Assembly (NCBI GenBank): GCA_020853025.1
Contig: JADYZP010000044.1
Location: 62,001 to 126,000, forward strand
DNA length: 64,000 nt
Source: Burkholderiales bacterium
GTDB taxonomy: Bacteria; Pseudomonadota; Gammaproteobacteria; Burkholderiales; Casimicrobiaceae
Reading direction: 5' to 3'
In this document: piece by piece, positions 17,057-41,571 of the stretch
Numbering within the stretch: position 1 is the first letter of the stretch
Layout of the letters: each line of letters begins with the position of its first letter
Notes under the pieces: model-generated
What the model was told of the DNA's origin: nothing
The model's database searches: none
The model's input: only the letters and a program-made list of their open reading frames with translations
Position numbers and translations under genes: made by a program

Positions 17057-18597
17057 TGACGACAGCAGAAGCATTGCCGCGCGACGCCGCGGTAGGCGTC
17101 ATAGGCGCCGGCGCGATGGGCGCGGGCATCGCGCAGGTCGCCGCGCAGGCGGGCCATCGCGTGCAGCTCTTTGACAACCGGATGGGCGCCGCCGACGATG
17201 CCAAGGCGAAGATCGCGCAAACGCTGTCCACCCTCGCAGCGAAGGGCAAGATCGCCAAGGCCGATGCCGACGCAGCGGCGGCGCGCATCGTCGCCGTTCA
17301 CGCGCTGGGCGACATGGTCAGCGCGCGTCTGGTGATCGAGGCCATCGTCGAAGACATGGAGACCAAGCGCCGACTGCTGCGCGAGCTCGAGGTGGTCGTC
17401 GCACCCGACGCGATCCTCGCCAGCAACACGTCGTCGCTGTCGATCACCGGGCTCGCGGCCGGGATGAAGCACCCGGGACGCATCGTCGGCATGCATTTTT
17501 TCAATCCCGCGCCGGTGTTGCCGCTGGTCGAGGTGGTGAGCGGGCTCGCGACCGATCCCGAGGTCGCCGCGGCAATCCATGCCACGGCGAAGGCATGGGG
17601 AAAAGTCCCCGTGCACGCGCTGTCGACGCCGGGCTTCATCGTCAATCGCTGCGCTCGCCCGTTCTACGGCGAGGCATTGAAGATGCTGGCCGAACGCGTC
17701 GCCGACCCGGCGACCATCGACGCTGTGATGCGCGACTCCGGCGGCTTCCGGATGGGGCCGTTCGAGCTGATGGATCTCCTGGGACACGATGTGAACCTCG
17801 CGGTCACCAAGAGCGTCTGGGAGGCGTATTTCCATGACCCGCGATTCACCCCGTCGGTGCTGCAGCAGGAACTCGTCGCTGGCGGCCATCTCGGCCGCAA
17901 ATCCGGCCGCGGCTTCTACGACTACGCAGCCGGAGCGATCAAGCCGCTGCCGCAAGCCGAGGCCCGGCAGCCGCGTCCGCTACGGATTCGCGCCGCGGGC
18001 GAGAGTCCACTGACGATGGGCCTGCGCGAGCGTTTCGCCGCGGCCGGCTTCGACGTCGCAGCGATGCCCGCCGATGCCGCGATCGCAGCCGCCTATTTCG
18101 TCATCGACGATGCACTGCTGGTACCCACCGACGGGCGCACGGCCACCACTATCGCTGCGGCTGCCGGGCAGCCGAACGTGGTCGTCTACGACCTCGCCTT
18201 CGACTACGCGACCTGTCCGCGCCTGGCGCTCGCGCGCGCTGACCCGTGCGCGGATGCGGCCGTCGCCGCTGCCGTCGGCGCCGTGCAGGAGGCGGGAATC
18301 GCGGTCACGGTCATCGACGACGCCGCCGGCCTGGTCGTGATGCGCACCGTCGCCATGCTCGCCAACGAAGCAGCCGACGCGGTCACACAGGGTGTCGCCG
18401 ACGCCCGCGACATCGATCTGGCGATGCGCAACGGCGTCAACTATCCGCGCGGACCGCTCGCCTGGGCCGACGCCATCGGCATCGCGCAGGTCTGCGCGGT
18501 GCTGCGCCATCTTGCCGCCCACTATGGCGGCGATCGCTACCGGACTTCACCGTTGCTCGCGCGGCGCTGCGCGACCGGCGCCCGGGTCGGCAAGTGA
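17053..18597 (+). CDS. paaH: PaaH, 3-hydroxyadipyl-CoA dehydrogenase
   Basis: A 514-residue NAD-dependent dehydrogenase that oxidises 3-hydroxyadipyl-CoA to 3-oxoadipyl-CoA. It has the Rossmann motif GVIGAGAMGAGIAQ, the SNTSSLSIT and MHFFNPAPVLPLVEVV catalytic regions, and two C-terminal 3HCDH domains, which explains the length. ATGATG at 17053 overlaps the paaG stop; either ATG may be used. The thiolase PaaJ, needed for the following step, is not in this cluster. Confidence 0.93.
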   Translation: MMTTAEALPRDAAVGVIGAGAMGAGIAQVAAQAGHRVQLFDNRMGAADDAKAKIAQTLSTLAAKGKIAKADADAAAARIVAVHALGDMVSARLVIEAIVEDMETKRRLLRELEVVVAPDAILASNTSSLSITGLAAGMKHPGRIVGMHFFNPAPVLPLVEVVSGLATDPEVAAAIHATAKAWGKVPVHALSTPGFIVNRCARPFYGEALKMLAERVADPATIDAVMRDSGGFRMGPFELMDLLGHDVNLAVTKSVWEAYFHDPRFTPSVLQQELVAGGHLGRKSGRGFYDYAAGAIKPLPQAEARQPRPLRIRAAGESPLTMGLRERFAAAGFDVAAMPADAAIAAAYFVIDDALLVPTDGRTATTIAAAAGQPNVVVYDLAFDYATCPRLALARADPCADAAVAAAVGAVQEAGIAVTVIDDAAGLVVMRTVAMLANEAADAVTQGVADARDIDLAMRNGVNYPRGPLAWADAIGIAQVCAVLRHLAAHYGGDRYRTSPLLARRCATGARVGK

Positions 18598-19052
18598 GTA
18601 CCGTGGACGACGGGGCGTCGTCTCCGTTGCCCGCGGACGCGCAGGCGCTGGCGCAGCGCGTCGCTGCCGCGATGTACGCCCGCGACCACGCCTCGCAGGG
18701 ACTGGATATCCGGATTGTCGAGGTTCGGCCCGGAATGGCGGTTCTGACCATGATGGTGCGCACCGACATGGTGAACGGCCACGCGATCTCGCATGGCGGC
18801 TTCGTGTTCACCCTCGCCGACAGCGCCTTCGCCTACGCGTGCAACAGCTACAACATCAACACGGTGGCAGCCGGCTGCGCGATCGAGTTCCTGGCGCCGT
18901 CGCGTGCGGGTGACGTGCTGACCGCGACGGCGCGCGAACATACGCTCTCCGGCCGCAACGGCATCTACGACGTCGACGTCAAGAACCAGAACGGCGATAC
19001 CATCGCGGTGTTCCGTGGCAAGAGCACACGGATCAAGGGCGCCGTCGTCTGA
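18594..19052 (+). CDS. paaI: PaaI hotdog-fold thioesterase
   Basis: A 152-residue hotdog thioesterase that in other bacteria clears phenylacetyl-CoA and ring-hydroxylated dead-end CoA esters, freeing CoA. The family motif is HAISHGGFVFTLADSAFAYACN. Start: GTG at 18594, which overlaps the paaH stop as GTGA; a second in-frame GTG lies at 18603. Length and position inside the operon support the assignment. Confidence 0.93.
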   Translation: MSTVDDGASSPLPADAQALAQRVAAAMYARDHASQGLDIRIVEVRPGMAVLTMMVRTDMVNGHAISHGGFVFTLADSAFAYACNSYNINTVAAGCAIEFLAPSRAGDVLTATAREHTLSGRNGIYDVDVKNQNGDTIAVFRGKSTRIKGAVV

Positions 19053-19090
19053 CGGGCGCGCCGATTCGACAGATCGAGGAGGAACCGAAA

Positions 19091-20395
19091 ATGACGGCGA
19101 GAACGCCCCGTCCCGAGGAACTGGAGCCGATCGAGCGCGCGAGCCGCGATGAATTGCGGTCGCTGCAATTGCAGCGCCTGCGTTGGACGCTCGGGCATGC
19201 CTACGACAACGTGCCGCATTATCGGCACGCCTTCGATGCGAAGGGAGTGCATCCACGCGAGCTTCTCGATCTGGACGATCTGGCACGCTTTCCGTTCACG
19301 GTCAAGACCGACCTGCGCGACAACTACCCGTTCGGGATGTTCGCGGTCCCGCGCGAGCAGGTCGTGCGCGTGCATGCGTCGTCGGGCACCACCGGCAAGC
19401 CGACGGTGGTCGGCTACACCCGCAACGACATCGAGACCTGGGCGAGCGTCATGGCGCGCTCGATCCGTGCGGCCGGCGGACGCGCCGGCGACGTTCTGCA
19501 AGTCGCCTATGGCTACGGCCTGTTCACCGGCGGGCTCGGCGCGCACTACGGTGCGGAAAAGCTGGGCTGCACGGTCATTCCGATGTCCGGAGGACAGACG
19601 GAGAGGCAGGTGCAGCTGATCATGGACTTCAAACCCACGGTCATCATGGTGACGCCGTCGTACATGCTCGCGATCGCCGAAGAGATGGAACGGCAGGGTA
19701 TCGACCCCACGAAGTCGTCGCTGGAGATCGGCATCTTCGGTGCCGAACCCTGGACCCCGACGATGCGCGAGACGATCGAGGCGCGGCTGGCGATGGACGC
19801 GATCGACATCTACGGCCTGTCCGAGGTGATCGGACCGGGTGTCGCGCAGGAGTGCATCGAGACCAAGGACGGGCTCACCGTCTGGGAGGACCACTTCTAT
19901 CCGGAGGTCGTCGATCCCGAAACCGGTGCGGTGCTGCCCGCGGGCGAGAAGGGCGAACTCGTGTTCACGTCGCTGACCAAGGAGGCGCTGCCGATCATCC
20001 GCTACCGCACGCGCGACCTGACGCGCCTGCTGCCGCCGACGGCGCGCTCGATGCGCCGGATCGAGAAAATCACCGGCCGCTCCGACGACATGATGATCAT
20101 CCGCGGCGTCAACGTGTTCCCGACGCAGATCGAGGAACTGATGCTCCGCGACGCAGCGTTGGCGCCGCACTACCAGATCGAGATCACACGGCCGGCGAGC
20201 CTCGACGAGATGACCGTGCTCGTCGAGCGCATCCCGGCAGCCGGCAGCGCGGATGGCGACGCGGCCGGCCACAGACTACAGCGGCACATCAAGAGCATGA
20301 TCGGCGTCAGCGCAACGGTGACGGTGCTGGGACCCGGCGGTATCGAGCGCTCACTCGGCAAGGCGCGACGTATCGTCGACAAGCGGCCGAAGTGA
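19091..20395 (+). CDS. paaK: phenylacetate-CoA ligase PaaK
   Basis: The 434-residue AMP-forming ligase that activates phenylacetate to phenylacetyl-CoA, the first step of the pathway. Motifs include the ATP-binding loop SSGTTGKPTVVGYT, then YGLSEVIGPGVAQEC, and IIRGVNVFPTQIEE in the C-terminal domain. GAGGAGG precedes the ATG. It closes the recognisable paa operon; the thioesterase gene 18 bp downstream may belong to the same transcript. Confidence 0.96.
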   Translation: MTARTPRPEELEPIERASRDELRSLQLQRLRWTLGHAYDNVPHYRHAFDAKGVHPRELLDLDDLARFPFTVKTDLRDNYPFGMFAVPREQVVRVHASSGTTGKPTVVGYTRNDIETWASVMARSIRAAGGRAGDVLQVAYGYGLFTGGLGAHYGAEKLGCTVIPMSGGQTERQVQLIMDFKPTVIMVTPSYMLAIAEEMERQGIDPTKSSLEIGIFGAEPWTPTMRETIEARLAMDAIDIYGLSEVIGPGVAQECIETKDGLTVWEDHFYPEVVDPETGAVLPAGEKGELVFTSLTKEALPIIRYRTRDLTRLLPPTARSMRRIEKITGRSDDMMIIRGVNVFPTQIEELMLRDAALAPHYQIEITRPASLDEMTVLVERIPAAGSADGDAAGHRLQRHIKSMIGVSATVTVLGPGGIERSLGKARRIVDKRPK

Positions 20396-20413
20396 TTTCA
20401 CCGTAGGGGCGAT

Positions 20414-20839
20414 ATGGCGGCCTGCCGGCATCACATCAGTCATTTCACCGTCGAATTCGGCGACTGCGATCCGGCACAGATCGTGTTCTATCCCAACTAC
20501 TTCCGCTGGATGGATGCGGCGTCGCTGCGCTATTTTCGGGCGGCCGGGTTGCCGTCGTGGCGCGAACTCGAGGCGAGATTCGGCATCATCGGCACGCCGC
20601 TGGTCGATGCGTCGGCGCGCTTTCTGCGCCCGGCGACGTACGGGGACGCGATCGACGTGCGCACCGCCATCGACGAATGGCGCGGCCGCAGCTTCGTGAT
20701 GTCGCACCTCATTCGCCGGGGCGACGACGTGCTGGTCGAGGGCCGCGAGATACGCGTGTTCGCTCGGCGGCGTGTCGATGATCCGTCGCGCATCCAGGCG
20801 GTGGTGCCGCCGGACATCGTACGCCAGTGGTGTGCATGA
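20414..20839 (+). CDS. 4-hydroxybenzoyl-CoA-thioesterase-like hotdog protein
   Basis: A 141-residue acyl-CoA thioesterase of the 4HBT family. FGDCDPAQIVFYPNYFRWMD holds the catalytic-type Asp17, in the same place as in Pseudomonas 4-hydroxybenzoyl-CoA thioesterase. It follows paaK closely and is the second thioesterase after paaI, so it may hydrolyse another aromatic or dead-end CoA ester. The true substrate is unknown. Confidence 0.85.
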   Translation: MAACRHHISHFTVEFGDCDPAQIVFYPNYFRWMDAASLRYFRAAGLPSWRELEARFGIIGTPLVDASARFLRPATYGDAIDVRTAIDEWRGRSFVMSHLIRRGDDVLVEGREIRVFARRRVDDPSRIQAVVPPDIVRQWCA

Positions 20840-26313: not shown

Positions 26314-27495
26314 TCAGATCGCGCGTTCGGCGCGCAAGGCGGCGATGGCGTCGGCGGCATAGCCCAGTTCGCGCAGTATGGCGTCGGTGTGCTCGCCAAG
26401 TGCGGGTACCGCGTCCATCCGCGGCTCGCCGTCCGCCCACGATCCCGGCGGCAGCAGCGCGGGAATCGGACCCGCAGGCGAGCCGATGTCGCGCCAGCGT
26501 CCGCGTGCGCGCAACTGCGGATGCGCCCATACGTCGTTCATCGTGTTGACCTGCGCATTGGCGATCTGCGCGGCGTCGAGCCGTGCGATGACCTCGACGG
26601 CCGTCAACGGCGCGAAGGCGGCGACGACAATGGCGCGCAATGCGTCGCGTGCCGCGCTGCGCTTCGAATTGCTGGAAAACCGCGCATCGGTTGCGAGTTC
26701 CGGTTGCAGCAGCACCTTCTCGCAAAAAACCGCCCATTCGCGCTCGTTCTGCAGTCCGAGCATGACGGTCCTGCCGTCGCCGGCCGGGAACGGGCCGTAC
26801 GGATAGATCGTCGCGTGGCTGGCGCCGGTGCGCTTCGGTGGCGGCGCGCCGTCGAGGGCGTAGTAGAGCGGGTAGTTCATCCATTCGACCAGCGATTCGA
26901 GCATCGAGATGTCGATGTGCTGTCCGCGTCCGGTCTTCGCGCGCTGCATCAACGCGGCGAGGATGTTCGAGTATGCGTACATGCCGGCGGCGATGTCGGC
27001 GATCGACGCACCGGCCTTCGATGGTTCCTGTTCGGTGCCGGTCACCGAGACGAAGCCCGACTCGCTCTGGATCATCAGGTCGTAGGCCTTCTTGTCGCGG
27101 TAGGGGCCGTCGCTGCCGTAGCCCGAGACGTCGCAGACGATCAACGACGGCTTCTTCGCGGCGAGCACGTCGTAGGCGAGTCCCAGGCGTGCAGCGGCGC
27201 CCGGAGCCAGGTTCTGCACGACGACGTCGGCCCGCTCGCCGATCAATCGGTGCAGGACCTTCTGCGCATCGGGATGCTTGACGTCGAGCGTCAGGCTCTC
27301 CTTCGAACGGTTGGTCCAGACGAAATGCGACGCCAGCCCGTGCACGCGCTCGTCGTAGCCGCGCGCGAAATCGCCGACGCCCGGCCGCTCGATCTTGATC
27401 ACGCGAGCGCCCAGGTCGGCGAGTTGCCGCGTGCAGAAAGGCGCCGCGATGGCGTGCTCCAGCGTGACAACGGTGATTCCAGCCAGGGGTCTCAT
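26314..27495 (-). CDS. CaiB/BaiF-type (class III) CoA-transferase
   Basis: A 393-residue class III CoA-transferase. The conserved N-terminus RPLAGITVVTLEHAIAAPFC, the SGYGSDGPYRDKKAYD region containing the catalytic Asp, and DISMLESLVEWM are all present. With the flanking hydratase and lyase it probably loads CoA onto a C5 dicarboxylate such as itaconate or mesaconate from succinyl-CoA; that substrate is inferred from neighbours. It lies 10 bp after the hydratase gene and 26 bp before the lyase gene. Confidence 0.87.
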   Translation of the reverse strand: MRPLAGITVVTLEHAIAAPFCTRQLADLGARVIKIERPGVGDFARGYDERVHGLASHFVWTNRSKESLTLDVKHPDAQKVLHRLIGERADVVVQNLAPGAAARLGLAYDVLAAKKPSLIVCDVSGYGSDGPYRDKKAYDLMIQSESGFVSVTGTEQEPSKAGASIADIAAGMYAYSNILAALMQRAKTGRGQHIDISMLESLVEWMNYPLYYALDGAPPPKRTGASHATIYPYGPFPAGDGRTVMLGLQNEREWAVFCEKVLLQPELATDARFSSNSKRSAARDALRAIVVAAFAPLTAVEVIARLDAAQIANAQVNTMNDVWAHPQLRARGRWRDIGSPAGPIPALLPPGSWADGEPRMDAVPALGEHTDAILRELGYAADAIAALRAERAI

Positions 27496-27505
27496 CAGTG
27501 TCTGT

Positions 27506-28351
27506 CTAGCGAAGTTGCGCGGTGGCGTCCATGGTCAGGAAGCCTTCGTGATCCTGCGCCCAGAGGCGCACGGTCGTCCCGTCTGGCTGCGGCTCGCCGC
27601 AGACGAAAAATGGATGGAGGTCGAAGGTCGGGCGCACCGCGCGGAACTCGTAGCGACCGAGTTGTGCGTCGGGCCGCTCCCGGCGCAGGAGGTCGAGCAG
27701 CAAGGTCGCCATCAGGGGCCCGTGAACGACGAGTCCCGGATAGCCTTCCACCTGTGTCACGTAGCGGCGGTCGTAATGGATGCGGTGGCCGTTGAAGGTC
27801 AAGGCTGAATAGCGGAACAGCAGCACTTCGTCGGGCGTCCACTGGCGCCGCCACGCCGATGCCGACGGTGCGGCCTTTGGCGGCGGAGCCACTTCGCCGG
27901 CGTTGGGCGCCTCGCGGTAGACGATGTCGTGGAATTCGGTCAACGCAATCGCTGCCTCGCCGTGCCGACGGATCTCATGGCGCACGCGGACGAAGACCAG
28001 CGGTCCGCTGCGGCCTTTTTTTTCGGTGACGTCGATGATCGTGGAGGTGCGCGACAGCACATCGCCAATGCGCAGCGGCGCGTGGAACTCGAACTGGCTG
28101 CCTGCCCACATTCGCCTGGGCAACGGCACCGGCGGCAGGAAGCCCCCGCGCTTCGCGTGGCCGTCGGAGCCGAGGTCCGCCTGCCGGTGCAGCGGCAGGA
28201 AGTACAGCCAGTGCCACAGCTCCGGCAGCCGGGTGCCGGCTGCAGGCCGCTCCGGGTCGCGGTCGAGCGCGGCCGACAGCGCCGCAAAGGGTGTGGCGGC
28301 GGCGATGTCGTCGATCGTTTCCGACCGGCCGATCCATTCCCCGAGGTTCAT
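27506..28351 (-). CDS. MaoC/FAS1-like hydratase (mesaconyl- or itaconyl-CoA hydratase type)
   Basis: A 281-residue double-hotdog hydratase like mesaconyl-C4-CoA hydratase and HTD2. The second hotdog carries the hydratase motif in LFRYSALTFNGHRIHYDRRYV, then GYPGLVVHGPLMATLLLD. The first hotdog has RMWAGSQFEFHAPLRIGD. It is the promoter-proximal gene of a three-gene minus-strand operon. Hydration of itaconyl- or mesaconyl-CoA to citramalyl-CoA is the expected reaction. The start at 28351 was preferred over one 33 bp upstream because MNLGEWIGR begins the conserved sequence. Confidence 0.85.
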   Translation of the reverse strand: MNLGEWIGRSETIDDIAAATPFAALSAALDRDPERPAAGTRLPELWHWLYFLPLHRQADLGSDGHAKRGGFLPPVPLPRRMWAGSQFEFHAPLRIGDVLSRTSTIIDVTEKKGRSGPLVFVRVRHEIRRHGEAAIALTEFHDIVYREAPNAGEVAPPPKAAPSASAWRRQWTPDEVLLFRYSALTFNGHRIHYDRRYVTQVEGYPGLVVHGPLMATLLLDLLRRERPDAQLGRYEFRAVRPTFDLHPFFVCGEPQPDGTTVRLWAQDHEGFLTMDATAQLR

Positions 28352-28509
28352 GACGCTGACTTTCGCGGTGACGTTGCCGCACATGATACGGCGACTTCAG
28401 CGCCCGCGCCTGCCAGACGGTCGCAAGCACTCCAGTTTGCGGCGCGATGCTCACCGAGATGTCTTTGGACTATCATGGGCTTCCGCATTGAAGGGCTTTC
28501 GGAGTCACG

Positions 28510-30781: not shown

Positions 30782-31840
30782 ATGGAACAGATTTCACGCT
30801 ACGGCACACCGTCGACCAGGCTGATCTCGATGCTCAAGTGCTTGGAGTACCCGATGCGGAACGTGCGCGAGGGCGACAAATTCGTCATTCTCACCGATGA
30901 TCAGATGGATCCTCTCATCTGGCAGGCGACGATGGCCACGCTCCACAGCCGTGGCGCCGAATGCCTGCTTTGCCTCTATCCGCGGCGCAGCCATCACTGT
31001 GCCGATCCATCCCCGCTTGCCCTCGGTGCGGCCAGAGCGGCGGACGTCATACTTGCACTGACCACCACGGCACTCAACAGCGGCACCCCCGGGCTGCGTC
31101 AAATTCGTTCCGAAGGCAGCGGCAAGGGCAAGACGCCTGTATGGTTGTTCGAAGAGTTGAACCAGGAGATTCTCATCGACGGCGGTGGGGCATCCACGGC
31201 GGCCGAGGTGGAGGAGATGTGCGAAATCCAGCGTCGCGTCGGTGCGATCTACGACAACGGCAAACAGATCCACGTCACCTCATCCAGCGGCACCGACCTG
31301 GTTGCCGACATCTCCGGCTACGCGCCGGGCGCACTCGCGCGCCGGTGGGGTGAGATTCCCTTCGAGCGCCACCCGGAGACGGGAAAGCTTGGTTCCGGTA
31401 CCTGGCCCTTCGGCGAGGTGCACGTGGAGCCACTCCCGGATTCGGCCAACGGCGTGGTGGTCTGGGACGAGACCGCGCATTACCCGCCCGGGCAGTGGAA
31501 GCAGCCGGTGCGCCTCTCGATCGAAAACGGACGCGTCGTCGACATCAGCGGCGGACACGAGGCGCGGGAGATTCGCGGCTATCTGGAGCGCTACGGAGAC
31601 GACAACTCCTGGCGTGTCGGCGGGGAGATCGCCATAGGCACCAATCGCCGCTGCCTTCCCTACACCGGGTGCATGCGCAGCGAGAAGAAGCGATACGGGG
31701 CCATGCACTTCGGCATCGGTCACGGCGCCGACCGGGGATTGGTGAACAGCGTCCTGCGGCTCGAGGGCATCACCGATCGAGTCACCATCGTCGTCGATGG
31801 CAAGCACACGGTGGCGCGGGATGGCGAGATCCTGGTATAG
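30782..31840 (+). CDS. M29 aminopeptidase / NicX-like protein with altered metal site
   Basis: A 352-residue protein related to the M29 metallo-aminopeptidases and to 2,5-dihydroxypyridine dioxygenase (NicX). Of the family metal ligands, the two Glu and one His seem retained: FGEV (Glu212), GGEIAIGTN (Glu282) and AMHFGIG (His309). The later HxD motif appears as RLE (Arg326, Glu328), so the usual second site is changed; this alignment is by eye. It begins a cassette with biotin-dependent carboxylase genes, 30 bp before the first, on one strand. Role unknown: it may hydrolyse or cleave the carboxylated product, or bind the substrate. Confidence 0.7.
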   Translation: MEQISRYGTPSTRLISMLKCLEYPMRNVREGDKFVILTDDQMDPLIWQATMATLHSRGAECLLCLYPRRSHHCADPSPLALGAARAADVILALTTTALNSGTPGLRQIRSEGSGKGKTPVWLFEELNQEILIDGGGASTAAEVEEMCEIQRRVGAIYDNGKQIHVTSSSGTDLVADISGYAPGALARRWGEIPFERHPETGKLGSGTWPFGEVHVEPLPDSANGVVVWDETAHYPPGQWKQPVRLSIENGRVVDISGGHEAREIRGYLERYGDDNSWRVGGEIAIGTNRRCLPYTGCMRSEKKRYGAMHFGIGHGADRGLVNSVLRLEGITDRVTIVVDGKHTVARDGEILV

Positions 31841-31870
31841 CCGGTCCCGGTACATGATGACGCCGGCACC

Positions 31871-32317
31871 ATGATTGCGCGCGTAACGCAGGAGGACCTC
31901 GTCGACATCCTGCAGGCCTTCGAGGCTTCGGGGTTTACGCGCCTGGAGCTGACCTTGGGGCCGCTTCGTGTTGCCGCGAAACGTGTAGGCGCCGCAGACG
32001 GCGGCGGCGTCGAATCGCTCGCCAGCGCCGCGCAGGTTGTCGCGCCGCTATTGGGTATCTTTCAGGCAGGTTCCCATTCCAATGCACCGGCGCTCGTGCG
32101 CCCCGGAACCCGCGTTCAGGCAGACACGATCATCGGGTTCATCAGCGTCATGCGAAAACTGACGGCGGTCAAGGCCGGTAGGCGCGGGACCGTGGCGCAG
32201 GTTCTCGTAGAGGACGGTCAATTCGTCGAGTATGGGCAGACGCTGCTGCAGGTCAGCACCCAATCCGCCGCTGCGGAGAGCGAGCGCCCGGAATCGCACT
32301 GCGTGAATGCGCGATGA
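31871..32317 (+). CDS. biotin-carrier-like protein lacking the biotinyl lysine
   Basis: A 148-residue protein laid out like an AccB carrier. It has an N-terminal helix-strand region (VTQEDLVDILQAFEASGF) paralogous to that of the carrier encoded at 33808, a linker, and a C-terminal biotinyl-domain fold. Where carriers have E-(A/V)-M-K, this has SVMRK, so Arg95 lies at the biotinylation position and Lys96 one residue later. It ends overlapping the biotin carboxylase start by 4 bp. It could be a structural or regulatory subunit rather than a carboxyl carrier. Confidence 0.72.
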   Translation: MIARVTQEDLVDILQAFEASGFTRLELTLGPLRVAAKRVGAADGGGVESLASAAQVVAPLLGIFQAGSHSNAPALVRPGTRVQADTIIGFISVMRKLTAVKAGRRGTVAQVLVEDGQFVEYGQTLLQVSTQSAAAESERPESHCVNAR

Positions 32318-33723
32318 GCTTCAAGCGCGTACTGATCGCGAATCGGGGTGAAATCGCCGTTCGCATCATCCGTGCCTGTCGCATGCTGGGCATCGAGACC
32401 GTCGCCACGGTGTCGGACGCAGATCGCGATAGCCTTCCCGCACGACTGGCGGATCGCAGCGTGTGCATCGGGCCTGCGCGCGCCGCTGCAAGCTATCTGA
32501 GCGTGGATACGGTGGTGACCGCCGCGGTCGGCTGCGGATGTGACGCCCTCCACCCGGGCTACGGGTTCCTGGCCGAGAACGCCGCGTTGGCCGAAGCGTG
32601 CGAGCAGGCCGGCGTAGCTTTCGTCGGGCCCCGTCCAGCGACCCTCCGGGAGATGGGCAACAAGATCCGGGCCAGAACGCTGGCGGTCCGGACCGGGGTA
32701 CCGGTCGTTCCCGGGTCTGGCGATGTTGCCGACTACGAGCGGGCCCGCGAAGTCGTGCACGATATCGGTCTACCCATTCTGCTGAAGGCAGCCGCCGGCG
32801 GTGGCGGCCGGGGAATGCAGGTCGTGCGTGAAATCGACGAACTGCGCGGGGCGTTCGAGACCGCCAGCGCCGAGGCGCGTGCGGCGTTCGGCGACGGCAC
32901 GCTCTACGTCGAACGTTTGATTAGCAACGCGAGGCACATCGAGGTCCAGATCCTCGGCGACCGCTACGGAAAGGTAGTGCACGTCGGCGAACGCGACTGC
33001 ACGTTGCAGAGGCGGCACCAGAAGATCGTGGAGGAGGGGCCGGCGGTGCTCATCCCGGATCGGCTGCGCAACGGCATACGTCAGGCGGCTGTGGATTTGG
33101 CCCTCAGCATGGACTACGAGAATGCCGGAACGGTGGAATTCATTGTCGACCAGGACCGGGACGAGTTCTTCTTCCTCGAGACCAATACGCGCATTCAGGT
33201 CGAGCATCCGGTCACCGAGGCGCTTACCGGCATCGACCTGGTGCGCGACCAGCTGCGTATCGCCGCCGGCGAGCCGCTGGCGTTCGACCAGGCGCAGATT
33301 CGACTCCAAGGTCACGCAATCGAGTGCCGAATCAACGCCGAGGCGGTATACGATGGCTTTCGACCGTCGCCTGGCCGAATCCGCGAATGGCGGCCTCCCG
33401 TGTATCCGTACGTGCGTCTGGACACGCATTGTTACCCCGGATACGTCGTTCCCCCGTTCTACGACTCGCTATTGGCAAAGCTGGTAGTCGTCGGCGAGAA
33501 TCGTGCGCAGGCGATTGCACGCATGCAACGGGCACTGCACGAATTCTCGGTCGACGGCATCGAGACGACGCTGCCGTTTCTGCGGGCGCTGCTGCAGCGG
33601 CCCGAATACACGGCGGGCGCTGTGCACACCCGCTGGGTGGAAGCGGTCATTGCCGAGCCGGACTTCGCCGACGGGCTCGGTCGTCGGGACGTGCAGACGA
33701 TCGCCGCCCGGCAGCCGACGTAG
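32314..33723 (+). CDS. biotin carboxylase (AccC family)
   Basis: A 469-residue ATP-grasp enzyme that carboxylates biotin on a carrier protein using ATP and bicarbonate. All landmarks are present: KRVLIANRGEIAVRI, the Gly-rich loop KAAAGGGGRGMQVV, HIEVQILGD, RDCTLQRRHQKIVEE and ETNTRIQVEHPVTE with the catalytic Glu and Arg. Length is slightly above the 449 of E. coli AccC. It is embedded in an operon with two carrier-like proteins and a carboxyltransferase and is unlikely to be the housekeeping acetyl-CoA carboxylase subunit, though that cannot be excluded. Confidence 0.9.
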   Translation: MSFKRVLIANRGEIAVRIIRACRMLGIETVATVSDADRDSLPARLADRSVCIGPARAAASYLSVDTVVTAAVGCGCDALHPGYGFLAENAALAEACEQAGVAFVGPRPATLREMGNKIRARTLAVRTGVPVVPGSGDVADYERAREVVHDIGLPILLKAAAGGGGRGMQVVREIDELRGAFETASAEARAAFGDGTLYVERLISNARHIEVQILGDRYGKVVHVGERDCTLQRRHQKIVEEGPAVLIPDRLRNGIRQAAVDLALSMDYENAGTVEFIVDQDRDEFFFLETNTRIQVEHPVTEALTGIDLVRDQLRIAAGEPLAFDQAQIRLQGHAIECRINAEAVYDGFRPSPGRIREWRPPVYPYVRLDTHCYPGYVVPPFYDSLLAKLVVVGENRAQAIARMQRALHEFSVDGIETTLPFLRALLQRPEYTAGAVHTRWVEAVIAEPDFADGLGRRDVQTIAARQPT

Positions 33724-33807
33724 ATTCGGTCCAGCGGGATCGTCGTGGAAAGTGCTCCTCTTGCGGTTTCATTGCAGCATTCGACCGATACACAGGAACA
33801 AGTGCCC

Positions 33808-34344
33808 ATGCCGGATTTGACCTTCCAGGATGTTCTCGACATCCTGCGCCTCATCGATTCAGGGCAGTTCCAGGAGCTCGAAATCGAATTTGATGGCACC
33901 AGGGTGAAGGTGACGCGCCACACCGGAACCACGGCCGGCGGCACCGGGCCGGCAACGGAAAGCGTCGGTGAAGTGATGCAGCCGCCGGAGCCGGCAACGG
34001 TTCTTGACGCGCAGGAGCAGGGTGCCGGGCCGAAGGCCGGCGATGCACAGCCCTCGACGTCGAAAGCACCGGCCCAGCGGCCGCTTGTCGAAATTCCGAA
34101 CAGGATCGACGTCAAGCCCCCGATGGCCGGCACCTACTACGCGGCGCCGGCGCCCAACGCGGCACCATTTGTCGACGTGGATCGCCGTGTCCGCAAGGGC
34201 GACTCGTTGGGCATCGTCGAGGTCATGAAGCTGTTCACACCGGTTCTGGCCCCCTGCGACGGCACCGTTCGGCTTATCTTCGTCAACAACGAGGAATTCG
34301 TGCAAAGCGACCAAACGCTGATGGTCATGCAAGCCGATGCCTGA
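33808..34344 (+). CDS. biotin carboxyl carrier protein (AccB-like)
   Basis: A 178-residue carrier with a complete biotinylation motif EVMKLF; Lys141 is the predicted attachment site. The N-terminus (LTFQDVLDILRLIDSGQF) matches AccB-type carriers and the degenerate carrier upstream. A Pro/Ala/Gln-rich flexible linker (about 45-100) joins it to the biotinyl domain, which contains the GTYY...AAPFV thumb-like segment. The ATG at 33808 was chosen over an in-frame GTG 63 bp earlier because it begins the conserved N-terminus. Confidence 0.88.
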   Translation: MPDLTFQDVLDILRLIDSGQFQELEIEFDGTRVKVTRHTGTTAGGTGPATESVGEVMQPPEPATVLDAQEQGAGPKAGDAQPSTSKAPAQRPLVEIPNRIDVKPPMAGTYYAAPAPNAAPFVDVDRRVRKGDSLGIVEVMKLFTPVLAPCDGTVRLIFVNNEEFVQSDQTLMVMQADA

Positions 34345-34407
34345 CGATCTCGTTTGCAGCGCGCATGATCGGATGCGGCACCGGCATCGACGAATGGAGG
34401 CAAGACG

Positions 34408-35892
34408 TTGAAGAAGCTGCGCATTCTGGATGAAACGCTGCGCAACGGACAGCAGTCGCTGTGGGCCACGCGCATGAAGACGAAATCGATGCTGCCCATC
34501 GCTCCCGTCATGGACGAGGCGGGCTTCGACACCATCGGCGTGATGGCGGGCGTTTCTTTCGAAACATCGGCGATGTACCTGTTCGAAGACCCGTGGGAGC
34601 GCATTCGACTGCTGCGGCAGCATATGCCGAAAACGCGGCTCGATGTCCTCGTGCGCGCCAGAAACCTGTGGGGTTGGCAGAGTCAGCCGTACGACGTGCA
34701 GACGCTGTACCTGGAAACTTTGCTCCGTAACGGCGTGGACAGCTTCAAGGTGTTCGACGGACTGAACGACCTGCGCAACATGGAGTGGCTGATCAAGGAG
34801 GGACGAAGGCTCGGCTTCAAGGTAAAGGGCCTGGTCGGCTATAACGACAGCCCGGCGCACTCGGACGCGTACCTTGCCGACAAGGCGAAGGAGTTCGCGG
34901 ACCACGGGGTCGATGCGCTGATTCTGTCGGACTCGGCGGGGGTGATGGCGCCGGAGCGGGTACGCAGCGCCTTCGCGGCCATTCGCGAAGCCATCGGCGC
35001 CCTGGAGGTCCACTTCCACAGCCATACGACCACGGGGCTGACCAAGGATGGCTGCCGTGAGGCCATCCGATCCGGTGTCGACGTGATCTGGACTGCGGCG
35101 AGGCCGCTGGCCTACGGCACCTCCATTCCCTGGACGCTGGACATTGTCCGGATGGCGCGCGAAGAAGGCAGACAGATCGACGTCGACGAGAAGGTGGTTC
35201 GACAGATCGACGACTGGTTCTATTGGGTCGCGCATGAGGAGCGACGTCCGATCCCCGAGGAAGTGCGGTTCGATCCGGCGTTCTATCAGCGGTACGTCGG
35301 ACATCAGATACCGGGCGGAATGATTTCCAATCTGTGCAGACAGCTGCAGGACCTTCGCCTCGAACATCGCTTGCCCGAAGTGCTGGAAGAGGCGTCCCGC
35401 GTGCGCGCGGAGTTGGGCTACCCGCACATGTCGACGCCGTTTTCGCAGTTCGTCGGCGTGCAGGCGGTGCTGAACGTGACGGGAGGCAAGCGCTACGCCA
35501 CCGTTCCGGAGGCGGTTCGCCTCTACGCGCGCGGGTACTTCGGCAGGCATATCCATCCTCTGGATCCGGAGGTGCTCGACATTCTGGTCGGCGATGCTCC
35601 GCTGATCGACTCCCTCGAAGGCCTGGACGAGCCGGCACTGCCCAGGATCCGCGCGGAACACGGCCCGTTCGAGTCCGACGAAGACCTGCTGCTGTTCCTG
35701 TTTCTGAACCCTGCCGCATACGGTAATTTCAGGAAAAACAGGAAGCCGATAACCTGGAATCCCCGACGCTGCCCGGTGACGGCGTTGGTGAAGGAACTGG
35801 TCAATCGCACCGACCTGGCATCGGTCGAGGTGGAGCGCGGTTCATTGAAGCTCGCGCTGTCGGGTCCCCGGGACGGGAGCCGCCGCGCATGA
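34408..35892 (+). CDS. pyruvate-carboxylase/OadA-type carboxyltransferase with altered active site
   Basis: A 494-residue protein of the HMGL-like plus PYC/OADA type, without its own biotinyl domain. It starts at TTG, with TGGAGG 8 bases upstream. The barrel begins DETLRNGQQSLWATRM where homologues have D(T/V)xLRDAHQS, so the metal-ligand Asp is Asn13. The lysine that is carboxylated in oxaloacetate decarboxylase and pyruvate carboxylase (IKDMAG) is Ser174 in LSDSAG. The two metal-binding His of HSH (204, 206) remain. The C-terminal SQFVGVQAVLNVTGG and RHIHPLDPEVL regions are conserved. The acceptor substrate is unknown and probably not pyruvate. Confidence 0.82.
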   Translation: MKKLRILDETLRNGQQSLWATRMKTKSMLPIAPVMDEAGFDTIGVMAGVSFETSAMYLFEDPWERIRLLRQHMPKTRLDVLVRARNLWGWQSQPYDVQTLYLETLLRNGVDSFKVFDGLNDLRNMEWLIKEGRRLGFKVKGLVGYNDSPAHSDAYLADKAKEFADHGVDALILSDSAGVMAPERVRSAFAAIREAIGALEVHFHSHTTTGLTKDGCREAIRSGVDVIWTAARPLAYGTSIPWTLDIVRMAREEGRQIDVDEKVVRQIDDWFYWVAHEERRPIPEEVRFDPAFYQRYVGHQIPGGMISNLCRQLQDLRLEHRLPEVLEEASRVRAELGYPHMSTPFSQFVGVQAVLNVTGGKRYATVPEAVRLYARGYFGRHIHPLDPEVLDILVGDAPLIDSLEGLDEPALPRIRAEHGPFESDEDLLLFLFLNPAAYGNFRKNRKPITWNPRRCPVTALVKELVNRTDLASVEVERGSLKLALSGPRDGSRRA

Positions 35893-37235
35893 GGCCCGCA
35901 CGGACGAACCCGATAGCGGTCATCATCGCCGTCGGCGCCCTGACCGCGGCCTGCGCGACCGCGCAATGCCCGCCGCAGGTCCCGGCACAGGGTGCCGCGC
36001 TGCCGGGACCTTTGCCGTTGTTTCCGGCGGACAACGGGTGGAACCTCGACGTGTCGGCGGCGCCGGTCGATCCGGCGTCGGCGAGCTTCATCGCCTTTAT
36101 CGACAATGGCGGAACGCGCCACCTGCGGCCGGACTTCGGCGGCGTCGCGACGCCTTCGGGCAGTGAGATCTACGGCATGCCCTACGCCGTCGTCGACGGC
36201 GCGCAGCCGAAGCTGCCGGTCCATTTCGACTATCCCGACGAGAGCGACGGCGTGGATAGTACGGGACGGGCGATCGACTTCTACCCGATCCCCGCGCGCG
36301 CGATTGGTGAGTCGCAATGGATCGAAGGCGGCGCTCCCGGCTCGGTCGACCAGCGCAGCGAGAATGACCGGCACCTGCTGATCGTCGACTGCACGCACCG
36401 GCACCTCTACGAGCTCTACAACGTTTACCACGACAGCCAATCCGGGCGCTGGTACGCGGGATCGGGCGCGTTCTTCGACCTTGACAGCAACGCCCGCCGC
36501 CCCGAAGGCTGGACGTCGGCCGACGCCGCGGGCCTGGCCATCCTGCCCGGTCTCGTTCGCTACGACGAGGCGTGGAATCCGGCCGTGACGGACATCGGAC
36601 ACGCGTTTCGTGTGACGGTACGCGCCACCAACGGCTACGTGTTTCCCGCGTCGCACCGTGCCGGATCGACGGCCGGCGCCTTGCCTATGGGCGCACGGTT
36701 GCGCCTCAAGGCAGTTGTCGACGGCAAGGATCCAGCGCTGCGCAGCAATGACCCCAATGTCCGCAAGATCTTTCGCGCCTTGCAGAAGCACGGCCTTATC
36801 GTCGCCGACAACGGCAGCGATCTCTACGTCACCGGCACCTTCGACACTCGGTGGAACAACGACATCCTCAATCCGGCGTTCGCCTTGCTGACCGCCCGTG
36901 ACTTCGACATCATCCGGCTGGGGTGGAATCCGCGCGCGACGGCGGCAGCGCTGGCATCGATAGCATTGCTGCCGTCCGCGGTTGCCGGCGGCCGCTCGTC
37001 GTTCGCCGTGGTGACGCTGTCCGCGCCGGCAGGCGGGCAGGGTGCTCGCGTTTTACTGCGCAGTTCCAATCCGGAGCTGGCTGCGGTTCCCGCCACGGTC
37101 GTCGTTGCCGCCGGCGCCACGTCGGCGCACGCGATGGTGAAGACGCGCCCGACGCGCCGCGCTGCCACGGTGACGCTATCGGCGGACCTCGATGGAACGA
37201 CGCAGACTTCCGCGCTGACAGTCAGCGTTCGCTAG
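35889..37235 (+). CDS. secreted lipoprotein coupled to the carboxyltransferase gene
   Basis: A 448-residue protein with a lipoprotein signal: hydrophobic IAVIIAVGALTAAC, where Cys22 would be lipidated. After the signal comes PLPLFPADNGWNLDVSAAPVD, a pattern seen in uncharacterised secreted proteins. There is a large domain with conserved His and Tyr (HLLIVDCTHRHLYELYN) and then a C-terminal Ig-like beta domain from about residue 365. The ATG overlaps the carboxyltransferase stop (ATGA), so translation is likely coupled to the biotin cassette. Its function is unknown. Confidence 0.75.
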   Translation: MRPARTNPIAVIIAVGALTAACATAQCPPQVPAQGAALPGPLPLFPADNGWNLDVSAAPVDPASASFIAFIDNGGTRHLRPDFGGVATPSGSEIYGMPYAVVDGAQPKLPVHFDYPDESDGVDSTGRAIDFYPIPARAIGESQWIEGGAPGSVDQRSENDRHLLIVDCTHRHLYELYNVYHDSQSGRWYAGSGAFFDLDSNARRPEGWTSADAAGLAILPGLVRYDEAWNPAVTDIGHAFRVTVRATNGYVFPASHRAGSTAGALPMGARLRLKAVVDGKDPALRSNDPNVRKIFRALQKHGLIVADNGSDLYVTGTFDTRWNNDILNPAFALLTARDFDIIRLGWNPRATAAALASIALLPSAVAGGRSSFAVVTLSAPAGGQGARVLLRSSNPELAAVPATVVVAAGATSAHAMVKTRPTRRAATVTLSADLDGTTQTSALTVSVR

Positions 37236-37321: not shown

Positions 37322-38275
37322 ATGCAGGAGAAGAAATTCGCGTCCCAGGCCGACCTCGAGGAGAAAAAGGTCAGCTTCGATCGCCTGTCCGACCACGCCT
37401 ACGCGTATACGGCGGAAGGCGACCCGAATACCGGCATCGTCATCGGCGATAACGCCGTGATGGTGATCGACACGCAGGCAACCCCGGTGATGGCGCAGGA
37501 CGTCATCCGGCGCATCCGCGAAGTCACCGACCTGCCGATCCGCTACGTCGTGCTGTCGCACTATCACGCGGTGCGCGTGCTCGGCGCTGCCGGTTACGCG
37601 CCCGAACACATCATCGCCAGTCGCGATACCTACGAGCTCATCATCGAGCGCGGTGAGCAGGACATGAAAAGCGAGATCGAGCGCTTTCCGCGCCTCTTTC
37701 GCGCGGTCGAGTCGGTGCCCGGCCTGACGTGGCCGACGATCGTCTTCGAACGCCGGATGACGCTGTGGCTGGGCAAGCTGCAGGTCGAATTGATGCAGCC
37801 CGGCCGCGGGCACACGCGCGGCGACACCATCGCCTGGCTGCCGCAGGAAAAAATCCTGTTCTCCGGCGATTTGGTCGAGTACGCGGCGACACCGTATACC
37901 GGAGACGCCTACCTCGCCGACTGGCCGGCGACGCTGGACGCGCTGGCGGCGCTGGAGCCCGAAAAGCTGGTGCCGGGCCGCGGCGCGTCGCTGCAGGACA
38001 AGGCGGCGGTCAAGGCGGGGCTCGACGGCACGCGCGCGTTCGTGACGGCGATGTACGAAAGCGTCCGGCAGGGGGCGCGGGCCGGCAAGGACCTGCGCAC
38101 CGTGTACCGGGAGACCTACGCGGCGCTGAAGCCGCGCTTCGGCGATTGGGTGATCTTCGATCACTGCCTGCCTTTCGACGTCACGCGCGCCTACGACGAG
38201 GCCACAGACTTCCCGCATCCACGCATCTGGACCGCGGAGCGCGACCGGGAGATGTGGCGGTCGCTGGAAGGCTGA
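37322..38275 (+). CDS. metallo-beta-lactamase-fold protein with a changed HxHxDH motif
   Basis: A 317-residue protein of the MBL fold, similar to SoxH/quinoprotein-relay-type proteins found near homogentisate genes. The fold is recognisable from VIDTQATPVMAQ, GRGHTRGDTIAWLP and ILFSGDLVEY. The metal motif that should read HxHxDH is HYHAVR, so the Asp and third His are replaced. Metal binding may be partial and hydrolase activity is doubtful. It stands 51 bp before the flavin hydroxylase gene and may belong to the same transcript. Confidence 0.8.
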   Translation: MQEKKFASQADLEEKKVSFDRLSDHAYAYTAEGDPNTGIVIGDNAVMVIDTQATPVMAQDVIRRIREVTDLPIRYVVLSHYHAVRVLGAAGYAPEHIIASRDTYELIIERGEQDMKSEIERFPRLFRAVESVPGLTWPTIVFERRMTLWLGKLQVELMQPGRGHTRGDTIAWLPQEKILFSGDLVEYAATPYTGDAYLADWPATLDALAALEPEKLVPGRGASLQDKAAVKAGLDGTRAFVTAMYESVRQGARAGKDLRTVYRETYAALKPRFGDWVIFDHCLPFDVTRAYDEATDFPHPRIWTAERDREMWRSLEG

Positions 38276-38326
38276 AACGCGCGCACCCGCGCCGGCGGCG
38301 CAGCGTCGCCCGGTATTTCACGCACC

Positions 38327-39955
38327 ATGTACCAGTATCCGACCTACGAATACCGGCGCCCGCCCGAACTGGACGGCACGTCGCGGCACTGCCCGGTCGT
38401 CGTGGTCGGCGCCGGTCCGGTGGGCCTTACTGTCGCCATCGACCTCGCACAGCGCGGCATCGCCGTGCTGTTGATCGACGACGACAACACGGTCAGCATG
38501 GGCTCGCGGGCAATCTGCTATTCGAAGCGGACGCTGGAGATCCTCGACCGCCTGGGCTGCGGCGAGACCGTGGCGAGCAAGGGTGTGCGCTGGCATGTCG
38601 GCAAGGTGTATCAGGGCAGCGAACTCGCCTACCAGTTCGACCTGCTGCCGGACTCCGGTCATCGCCGGCCGGCCTTCGTCAACCTGCAGCAGTATCATTT
38701 CGAGGAATGCCTGGTCCGCCGCGCGCAGGACTTGCCCGCACTCGAAATCCGCTGGCGGCAGCGGGTCAGCGAAGTCACGCAGCAGGCCGACCGCGTCGAC
38801 CTCAGCGTGACCACCGACGACGGCGAATATGCGCTCTCCTGTGACTGGCTGATCGCCTGCGATGGCGCGCGCAGCCCGGTGCGCCAGATGCTGGGGCTCG
38901 ATTTCGAGGGCCAGGTGTTTCGCGACCGGTTCCTGATCGCCGACATCCACATGACGTCGGACTTCCCGGCCGAGCGCCGTTTCTGGTTCGATCCTCCATT
39001 TCATCCCAACCAGTCGGTGCTCCTGCATCGGCAGCCCGACGATATCTGGCGGGTGGACTTCCAGCTGGGCTGGGACGCGGATCCTGAACTCGAAAAGCGC
39101 GCCGACCGCATCATGCCGCGGCTGCGCGCGATGCTCGGTCCCGACGCACGCTTCGAGATCGAGTGGGCGAGCGTCTACACTTTCTCCTGCCGCAGAATGC
39201 AGAAGTTCCGGCATGGTCGCCTCCTGTTCGCCGGCGATTCCGCGCACCTGGTGAGTCCCTTCGGCGCACGTGGCGCCAACAGCGGCATCCAGGACGCCGA
39301 CAATCTCGCCTGGAAGCTCGAACTCGTTTTGCGCGGACTGGCGCCGGAGGTGCTTCTCGACAGCTACGACAGCGAGCGCGTCGCCGCGGCCGACGAAAGC
39401 CTCGCCAACTCGACGCGGGCGACCGACTTCATCACGCCGAAAAGTCCGGTTTCACGCTGTTTTCGCGATGCCGTGCTCGCGCTGGCGCGCCGCCATCCGT
39501 TTGCGCGCGGCCTGGTCAACAGCGGCCGGCTGTCGGTGCCCTCGGTGCTCGCGCGTTCGCCGCTCAACACCGCCGATCGCGACACCTTCGCCGGGGCGAT
39601 GCTGCCAGGTACGGTGGCGGCCGATGCGCCGGTCGAGGGCGAAGCCGGCGCCTGGCTGCTCGAGTACCTGGGCGGTGGTTTCGTGCTGCTCGTCTTCGGA
39701 GATGCCGTCGACGACACGGCGGCGCGCGCGGTATCCGAGGATCCGATCGGCTGCCGTGTCGTGCAGGTGGGAGGCGCTCAGGGCGCTGCGCGCCTTCGCG
39801 TGCGTGACGTGCAGGGCCTGGCAGCCGCGCGCTATGATGGCAAGGCGGGCACCTGTTATCTGCTGCGTCCCGACCAGCATGTCTGCGCGCGCTGGCGCGC
39901 CTTCGACGCGGACGCCGTGCGCGCGGCGCTGGCATGCGCAACGGCGCAGGTTTAG
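38327..39955 (+). CDS. FAD-dependent aromatic hydroxylase, MhaA/MhpA-like
   Basis: A 542-residue class A flavoprotein monooxygenase. It has the FAD fingerprint VVVGAGPVGLTVAIDLAQRG, the DG motif CDGARSPVRQML, and LLFAGDSAHLVSPFGARGANSG, plus a C-terminal thioredoxin-like domain from about residue 400. Size and gene order (followed by a 73-residue protein and hmgA) match the two-component 3-hydroxyphenylacetate 6-hydroxylase MhaAB of Pseudomonas putida U, which makes homogentisate. That assignment is by context; 3-(3-hydroxyphenyl)propionate-type substrates are possible. Confidence 0.82.
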   Translation: MYQYPTYEYRRPPELDGTSRHCPVVVVGAGPVGLTVAIDLAQRGIAVLLIDDDNTVSMGSRAICYSKRTLEILDRLGCGETVASKGVRWHVGKVYQGSELAYQFDLLPDSGHRRPAFVNLQQYHFEECLVRRAQDLPALEIRWRQRVSEVTQQADRVDLSVTTDDGEYALSCDWLIACDGARSPVRQMLGLDFEGQVFRDRFLIADIHMTSDFPAERRFWFDPPFHPNQSVLLHRQPDDIWRVDFQLGWDADPELEKRADRIMPRLRAMLGPDARFEIEWASVYTFSCRRMQKFRHGRLLFAGDSAHLVSPFGARGANSGIQDADNLAWKLELVLRGLAPEVLLDSYDSERVAAADESLANSTRATDFITPKSPVSRCFRDAVLALARRHPFARGLVNSGRLSVPSVLARSPLNTADRDTFAGAMLPGTVAADAPVEGEAGAWLLEYLGGGFVLLVFGDAVDDTAARAVSEDPIGCRVVQVGGAQGAARLRVRDVQGLAAARYDGKAGTCYLLRPDQHVCARWRAFDADAVRAALACATAQV

Positions 39956-39968
39956 GAAGCCAGGCGCG

Positions 39969-40190
39969 ATGGCCACACTCGACACCCAAGCCAATATCCC
40001 CGCCCCCGACGACTTCTACGAAGCGCTGATCGGGCTCCACCGCGACTTGAGCGACGCGCAAAGCGCGCTGGTCAATGCCAAGCTGATCCTGCTGCTTGCC
40101 AACCACATCGGCGACCCGCAGGTGCTGCGCGAAGCAATGGCGGCGGCACGCGAGGATGTGCTCGTTTCCGTGCCGACGCACGCTTCCTGA
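39969..40190 (+). CDS. small DUF2783-type protein, possible coupling subunit (MhaB-like)
   Basis: A 73-residue, mostly helical acidic protein with no membrane segment. It is preceded by AGGAAG and lies 13 bp after the hydroxylase gene. It resembles the DUF2783 family, commonly found between an FAD hydroxylase and homogentisate dioxygenase. The small MhaB coupling protein of P. putida U occupies the same place, so a partner role for the hydroxylase is inferred. Confidence 0.75.
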
Positions 40191-40215
40191 CACGCCTCGA
40201 ATGAAAGGGACACCC

Positions 40216-41571
40216 ATGGCCACCGCCACTGCCGTCCGTGCCACCGCGACTCCGGCCGCCAGCGGCGCCGATGCGTCGCCTCCCGCGTATCAGTCGGGCT
40301 TTGGCAACGAGTTTGCGACCGAAGCCATCGCCGGTGCGCTGCCGGTCGGACAGAACTCGCCGCAGCGTCCTCCGTACGGGCTTTACGCCGAGCAGATCTC
40401 CGGCTCCGCGTTCACCGCACCGCGCGCAGCCAATCGCCGCACGTGGACGTACCGGATCCGGCCCGCCGCGATGCACGAGCCATTCCGGCCGCTCGGCAAC
40501 GGTCGTATCGTCAGCCGTTTCGGCGAAGTGCCGACACCACCGAACCAGCTGCGCTGGGATCCGTTGCCGCTGCCGACGGAGGCGACCGACTTCGTCGACG
40601 GCCTGGTGACGATGGCCGGCATCGGGGACCCTGCGGCGATGTCCGGTTGCGCGCTGCACGTCTTTGCGGCGAACCGGTCGATGGCGCAGCGCCATTTCTC
40701 CAATTCCGACGGCGAGATGCTCATCGTTCCACAGCACGGCCGCCTGCGCTTCCTCACCGAACTGGGGCGCATCGACGTCGAGCCGCAGGAGATCGTCGTG
40801 ATCCCCCGCGGCGTCCGTTTTCGCGTCGAATTGCAGGATGCGGCAGCGCGCGGCTACGTCTGCGAGAATTACGGCGCCCATCTGCGACTGCCCGACCTCG
40901 GCGTCATCGGTTCCAACGGGCTTGCCAATCCGCGTGACTTCCTGACGCCGCAGGCTTGGTACGAGGATCGGGAAGGATCCTTCGAACTCGTGACCAAGTT
41001 CGTCGGCAATCTGTGGACTGCGGACGTCGATCATTCGCCACTCGACGTCGTTGCCTGGCACGGCAACTATGCACCCTACAAGTACGACCTGCGGCGCTTC
41101 AACGCCATTGGATCGATCAGCTTCGACCACCCGGACCCGTCGATCTTCCTGGTGCTGCAGTCGCAGACCGACACTCCGGGTGTCGACGCCATCGACTTCG
41201 CGATCTTTCCACCGCGAATCCTGGCGATGGAGCACACCTTCCGGCCGCCATGGTTCCATCGCAACGTGGCGAGCGAGTTCATGGGGCTCGTCCACGGCGC
41301 CTACGACGCCAAGGCCGAGGGCTTCCTGCCCGGTGGTGCGAGCCTGCACAACTGCATGACCGGACACGGCCCGGATGCCGAGACCTTCGACCGCGCAAGC
41401 CGCGCCGATCTTTCGACGCCGACGCGGATCACCGACACGATGGCGATCATGTTCGAGACGCGCAACGTGATCCGGCCGACCCGCTTCGCGCTCGAATCGG
41501 CACAGTTGCAGGGCGAGTATTACCGCTGCTGGCAGGATCTGCCGAAGCAGTTCGATCCGGAACGACGTTGA
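40216..41571 (+). CDS. hmgA: homogentisate 1,2-dioxygenase
   Basis: A 451-residue non-haem iron dioxygenase that opens the ring of homogentisate to maleylacetoacetate. Family motifs: [13 protein letters not shown] at the N-terminus, [15 protein letters not shown], and in the C-terminal half [17 protein letters not shown] with [11 protein letters not shown], where iron ligands lie. The ATG at 40216 is favoured over 40201 because AAAGGGA lies just before it. The next pathway enzymes, maleylacetoacetate isomerase and fumarylacetoacetase, are not in the window. Confidence 0.95.

Follow-up and report, generated by a model that had tools for sequence, protein, structure and literature searches.

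A conserved cassette joining a biotin carboxylase to an M29-like protein

Which reaction is served by a biotin-dependent carboxylase whose genes are accompanied by one for an M29-like protein, and in which the carboxyltransferase and one of two carriers have lost characteristic residues, is the question raised by positions 30782–37235 of the 64,000-nucleotide stretch of Burkholderiales bacterium DNA analysed here (contig JADYZP010000044.1; the whole stretch is called the window below). The region contains a five-gene cassette, encoding the M29-like protein, a carrier without the biotinyl Lys, a biotin carboxylase (BC), a biotin carboxyl carrier protein (BCCP) and a carboxyltransferase (CT), that is real, conserved and uncharacterised, and that is likely to degrade an imported compound through a pathway so far undescribed. 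The same gene order is shared by the window and eight other loci (nine copies), and so is not explained by chance; eight of the nine copies are complete, and the remaining one (L019) is broken inside the BCCP gene by a contig end. A preliminary description of the window had reported six co-directional genes with two ATGA overlaps, and all six open reading frames (ORFs) were found on the + strand, with the overlaps at 32314–32317 and 35889–35892:

30782..31840, + strand: M29-like protein, 352 aa; E212, E282 and H309 (M29 metal site 1) kept, R326 and E328 replacing the site-2 His-x-Asp
31871..32317, + strand: biotinyl-like carrier without the biotinyl Lys (first carrier), 148 aa; motif SVMRKL; probably a structural subunit
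32314..33723, + strand: BC subunit, 469 aa; intact catalytic motifs
33808..34344, + strand: BCCP (second carrier), 178 aa; EVMKLF motif
34408..35892, + strand: CT subunit, 494 aa; HMGL-like and PYC_OADA domains; TTG start; Asp to Asn (N13) and Lys to Ser (S174)
35889..37235, + strand: putative lipoprotein; overlaps the CT stop, adjoining the conserved cassette and not part of it

The listed ORF of the BCCP begins at 33745, and the ATG at 33808, which agrees with its relatives, is the best start; the TTG of the CT at 34408 is preceded by GGAGG. In searches of Pfam and NCBIfam both carriers match Biotin_lipoyl (34.2 and 49.8 bits, cut-off 22.1), and the BC, previously described as complete, scores 639.5 bits against an NCBIfam cut-off of 597. 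The idea of a six-gene unit holds in that a unit of conserved order exists, but the lipoprotein is not included in it: tblastn detected its gene in none of the 24 loci searched, which rules it out as a member, and the protein has no Pfam or NCBIfam match at E 0.001. We take its LTAAC sequence to be a lipobox.

Distribution and rarity

Besides the window, the cassette is found on a Sulfitobacter dubius plasmid, where the gene for an M29-like protein of 70% identity is followed in order by those for carrier, BC, carrier and CT, and in G014, a genome of the window's own genus (M29-like protein at 81% identity). Six further loci were detected on genome contigs by a peptide-pattern scan, in Xanthobacter tagetidis, a Burkholderiaceae metagenome-assembled genome (MAG), Lutimaribacter pacificus, an alphaproteobacterial MAG, a Maricaulis MAG and a Rhodobacteraceae MAG, so that the hosts include named environmental strains (X. 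tagetidis, L. pacificus and S. dubius). The M29-like protein served as bait, and the contig scan, which used two conserved peptide patterns, detects close kin only. Two of the first carriers, those of L010 and L018, have diverged too far to be picked up by tblastn with the window's carrier and were assigned by position, by likeness to the other copies and, for L010, by annotation. Conserved co-occurrence, suggested earlier as a check on the functional unit, is thus seen at eight other loci, and a check for homologues in unrelated contexts showed that all nine M29-like proteins found at an identity of at least about 70% sit in the cassette.

The cassette is rare in every genome set searched. 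Strong M29-like matches were present in two of 149 relatives (the window's genome and G014), with weak matches in G010, G025 and G114 (E 7e-4 to 1.5e-6). At E 1e-20 the window's own genome was the sole match in 369 class and 398 phylum genomes, which are overlapping samples. A search with the single M29-like protein at E 0.001 hit 15 of 299 phylum genomes, none scoring above 44 bits apart from the window's own. The family of G884 gave three matches in 198 genomes at 1e-40, namely G884 itself (carrying L018), G1048, where the match has coordinates identical to those of L019, and, more weakly, G926 (141 bits); that of G883 gave one in 74, G883 itself. A CT profile scored 987 bits in the window's own genome and at most 364 in all others of the 398 phylum genomes. 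Four more distant M29-like relatives (L011, L012, L013 and L087, 30–36% identity) have no carboxylase within 9–12 kb on either side, and around twelve other PYC-type CTs the 3–10 kb on each side contain no M29-like gene, so the link between M29-like protein and CT looks specific to the cassette family.

An altered carboxyltransferase

PYC-type CTs usually carry the annotation pyruvate carboxylase (PC) or oxaloacetate decarboxylase (OAD). The best NCBIfam score of the cassette CT is 392.6 against a cut-off of 402, and no model was passed. The two canonical residues that it had been said to lack are those replaced by N13 and S174 (positions counted on the printed alignment), which face D17 and K178 of the solved OAD alpha subunit. 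The Asp of the PC/OAD site is a metal (Zn) ligand, and its Lys takes up a carboxyl group or is carbamylated. In the reaction scheme given in the available part of the OAD report, K178 accepts the carboxyl group (PMC2881705). Both replacements are invariant in the eight cassette CTs and occur in none of the 20 other CTs compared, all of which have the Asp and 18 the Lys, the other two being Rhodococcus rows with Glu; Asp and Lys are both present in all nine PC/OAD rows. Trp19, in turn, is found in 8/8 cassette CTs and 11/11 other non-PC/OAD CTs, with Ile or Leu at this position in 9/9 PC/OAD rows. The cassette shares CT and BC domain families with the two-subunit PC and the OAD alpha subunit, but differs from them in the loss of the Asp13 and Lys174 equivalents, in the separate gene for the carrier and in the M29-like partner.

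Two trees of the CTs (L036 excluded from both, and L063, L026 and L029 also from the second) each gave three groups: the cassette CTs and the PC/OAD sequences, both supported at 100/100 in both trees, and the remaining CTs, which group at 82/68 in the first (11 rows) and 96/93 in the second (9 rows). The trees are unrooted, the program issued a long-branch warning, and the sister group of the cassette is open. The first tree, when midpoint-rooted, suggested that the cassette CTs are sister to look-alikes of the ketone carboxylases considered below, and this was dropped when the second, without three long rows, separated three groups and left the root open.

Three of the seven cassette genomes searched have another PYC-type CT besides that of the cassette, encoded in an open frame of 1161–1612 aa (169–179 bits). 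In these genomes the cassette is therefore no substitute for PC, and a role as the cell's pyruvate carboxylase is not favoured.

Other carboxylase sets were also seen. A Sulfitobacter faviae plasmid (L026) carries another BCCP-BC-CT set at 6142–9452, with TRAP transporter and isochorismatase-family genes near it, and its CT forms its own long branch. Two Rhodococcus plasmids (L025 and L060) have genes for a PPDK-like protein, carrier, BC, CT, OB-fold protein and thiolase, and it is their CTs that have Glu for the active-site Lys.

Carriers and selection

The ATP-grasp and catalytic motifs of the BC, whose residue roles are presumed here, are intact in 9/9 copies, and the EVMKLF motif is conserved in 8/8 BCCPs, as expected of a carrier described as normal (row ownC28, which came out in a wrong frame, was excluded from this motif alignment). 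The biotinyl Lys is missing from the first carrier in all nine copies, in agreement with the preliminary description. In translations read by eye, the position is occupied by R, G, N, D, R, R, E, C and G (six residue types), and the window's protein has a Lys one place further on. This is a conserved carrier unable to hold biotin at the usual place, and it has probably turned into a structural subunit, to judge from its sequence. It is the fastest evolving of the proteins, with a dN/dS of about 0.40 in both pairs of copies compared, and is still constrained. In both pairs dN/dS is lowest for the M29-like protein and the CT (about 0.04 and 0.06 for L018 against L020), so that CTs which have lost two site residues are yet strongly selected. 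The loss of catalytic-type residues and of the biotinyl Lys would be in keeping with a decaying PC that has a dead CT and a dead carrier; however, the CT changes are invariant across genera, and the two pairs combine low dN/dS with no internal stops. We give this explanation next to no credence, and the cross-genus invariance and low dN/dS rule it out.

An M29-like protein that appears to keep metal site 1 where NicX keeps site 2

The match of the M29-like protein to Pfam M29 is weak (24.6 bits, under the cut-off of 27), and E212, E282, H309, R326 and E328 are invariant in 9/9 copies. In the aminopeptidase AmpS, according to the available part of the source, one metal is bound by E253 and H348, the second by H381 and D383, and E319 bridges them (PMC7023490). 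E212 and E282 face two peptidase Glu in weak alignments to PepS and AmpT (E 0.01–0.05), and motif and spacing suggest that H309 is equivalent to AmpS H348. The EEHYHD metal/catalytic set is incomplete: Glu, Glu and His are retained, and Arg-x-Glu replaces His-x-Asp in all nine copies. The protein thus resembles the M29 aminopeptidases (AmpS, AmpT and PepS) in fold and in the site-1 Glu, Glu and His, but differs from them in site 2, in being about 60 residues shorter and in falling below the Pfam cut-off. Two of the distant relatives without a carboxylase beside them, on Salipiger and Neorhizobium plasmids (L011 and L013), also have Arg-x-Glu for His-x-Asp.

A predicted model of the protein (pLDDT 78.9) matches NicX (2,5-dihydroxypyridine 5,6-dioxygenase), its closest solved structure, with a TM-score of 0.73 and AmpT with 0.64, and Foldseek returned 7cn3 (E 8.9e-24) and 2ayi (E 4.2e-14); the alignment behind the model included NicX relatives, so part of its likeness to NicX is built in. 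An earlier model (pLDDT 53.5) was too poor and was not used. On the evidence of the model, the protein belongs to the M29/NicX fold superfamily, which bears out its earlier naming as M29/NicX-like as far as the fold is concerned, but it is not of the NicX type. The Fe(II) ligands of NicX are H265, S302, H318 and D320 in the available part of the source (PMC7910607), and these face E282, G311, R326 and E328, with none of the four kept; one alignment moves the last two facing residues by one, to L327 and G329, still without His or Asp (rows L008, L066, L068 and L069, in a wrong frame, and L070, which aligns poorly, are left out of the alignment with NicX). From these alignments, NicX appears to have retained site 2 and the cassette protein site 1 of the M29 metal centre.

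A pathway of the NicX type would have the M29-like protein cleave a ring as an Fe(II) dioxygenase and the carboxylase take up the product. In its favour, NicX is the solved structure closest to the protein in fold and in sequence, but the four facing residues speak so clearly against such a dioxygenase that it is ruled out on all four ligands and we consider the pathway very improbable. Since these ligands are all lost, site 1 is kept and site 2 is replaced, a predicted role as hydrolase is more likely than one as dioxygenase.

Proposed function

Importer genes lie near the cassette in six of the eight other loci, as TRAP transporters in L010, L018 and L020 and as ABC-type transporters in L014, L016 and L017, the ABC-type assignments resting largely on likeness among the loci and on inspection of the sequence. 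Because the CT has lost the Asp and Lys and importers are found nearby, the substrate is likely to be an imported compound other than pyruvate. The BC, with its intact motifs, would charge the BCCP-bound biotin with a carboxyl group from bicarbonate at the expense of ATP, and the altered CT would hand the carboxyl group to this small substrate; the M29-like protein, a predicted metal hydrolase with site 1 only, would then hydrolyse the carboxylated product or act on the same intermediate, and the first carrier would serve as a structural subunit. That the five genes form one catabolic unit, coupling ATP-dependent carboxylation of an imported non-pyruvate substrate to M29-like hydrolysis, is proposed with moderate confidence; gene order, conservation, residue changes, predicted fold and selection are the directly observed support. 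A biotin enzyme acting on a different substrate, with cleavage of the product by the M29-like protein as a second step, had already been suggested, and both suggestions gain support from these features.

Several points weigh against the catabolic unit. The cassette has no known substrate, activity or complex, and a regulatory or chaperone role is conceivable for the M29-like protein. No importer was recognised directly beside the window's copy, L021 is without a clear importer, and importer and regulator families vary among the loci; as neighbours differ between genomes, no pathway can be read from them. In four of the seven cassette genomes searched (the window's, G014 and those of L016 and L020) no other PYC-type CT was found, and the cassette may have a PC-like role there.

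The nearest characterised systems of like build appear to be the aryl-ketone carboxylases HpeCBA, AcvCDE and XccBCA, likened here by description and not by sequence. In the available part of their description (PMC9618137), HpeCBA, to which XccBCA and the acv genes are homologous, is a three-subunit biotin carboxylase that carboxylates 4-phospho-acetophenones and uses ATP and bicarbonate, and the systems, which are catabolic, have separate BC, carrier and CT subunits encoded together, as in the cassette. It is conceivable, though rather doubtful, that the cassette is a ketone carboxylase of this kind, its CT carboxylating the carbon beside a ketone to a beta-keto acid and its M29-like protein cleaving a C-C bond in place of a CoA ligase and thiolase/hydrolase. 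The three-subunit build is the same, the cassette CT is 32–38% identical to those of six plasmid loci with carrier, BC and CT genes, some of which have hpe/acv-like neighbours (L024 closest, L023 and L027 in part), Trp19 is common to the cassette and 11 other non-PC/OAD CTs, among them the PYC_OADA-type CT of the hpe-like plasmid locus L024, and two Rhodococcus CTs are also without the Lys. Yet L024 and similar plasmid loci differ from the cassette in keeping Asp13 and in having one carrier gene and no M29-like gene, the Asp lost by the cassette CT is kept by all 20 other CTs, and the trees, which contain look-alike plasmid loci and not Hpe, Acv or Xcc themselves, do not join the cassette to these CTs. 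The characterised systems are described with kinase and phosphatase genes, and for Hpe a CoA ligase gene (PMC9618137, available part), but none of these lies inside the cassette, and no kinase or phosphatase is among the 25 annotated features of L010, the ORFs around other copies being only partly annotated.

Alternatively, the CT might carboxylate the nitrogen of an amide, lactam or ureide, for which no metal-bound enolate is needed, and an M29-like amidohydrolase might open the activated bond. This is unlikely on present evidence. The absence of two PC/OAD active-site residues would fit, as would a metal site 1 resembling that of the M29 peptidases, which as a family cleave amide bonds (PMC7023490, available part), and the about equal constraint on M29-like protein and CT; against this, nothing points directly to a nitrogenous substrate, several neighbours suggest aromatic acids, and the M29 site-2 ligands are lost. 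A narrower version, which we regard as improbable, is an ATP-driven opening of amides or lactams, in which an altered CT that has given up its enolate site N-carboxylates the substrate, a hydrolase of the M29 fold uses its one metal site to split the activated bond, and the biotin-less carrier is a scaffold; if true, this would be new chemistry for the CT family and the M29 fold alike. The known N-carboxylating CTs belong, to our knowledge, to other families. Urea carboxylase and allophanate hydrolase follow the same logic of carboxylation and then hydrolysis, through CT and hydrolase families unrelated to those of the cassette.

A literature search combining M29 or NicX with biotin carboxylase found no such cluster described in the partial texts available to it, most subscription journals being outside its scope. 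The earlier statement that no pathway is known with this gene set therefore stands for the cluster, but carboxylases of the same three-subunit build, distinct from PC and OAD, have been characterised (HpeCBA, AcvCDE and XccBCA; PMC9618137, available part).

Genomic neighbourhood

A GntR regulator gene lies near the cassette in five of the eight other loci (L010, L014, L018, L020 and L021), and an enolase-superfamily gene in L014 and L017; the stretch of L019 is too short for its neighbours to be judged. Upstream of the cassette, L010 and L021 both have genes for a PDR/VanB-type reductase, an NMT1-like binding protein and a MarR-type regulator, and each has a Rieske protein within about 14 kb (of the LigXa_C type in L021).

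The window's copy is located between phenylacetate-type and homogentisate-type blocks. At 10566–20839 are a PaaB-like ORF, an aldehyde dehydrogenase, an enoyl-CoA hydratase-like protein and a PaaK-like ligase, which together look like a phenylacetate (paa) catabolic cluster; Pfam covered the dehydrogenase and the ligase only, and some of the gene names are our presumption. Nearer to the cassette, a CoA-transferase III and FAS1-like dehydratase pair lies upstream on the opposite strand (26314–28384, - strand). Downstream, at 37337–41571, an MBL-fold protein, an FAD monooxygenase (PRK08132, 835 bits against 416) and a homogentisate 1,2-dioxygenase make up the homogentisate-type block.

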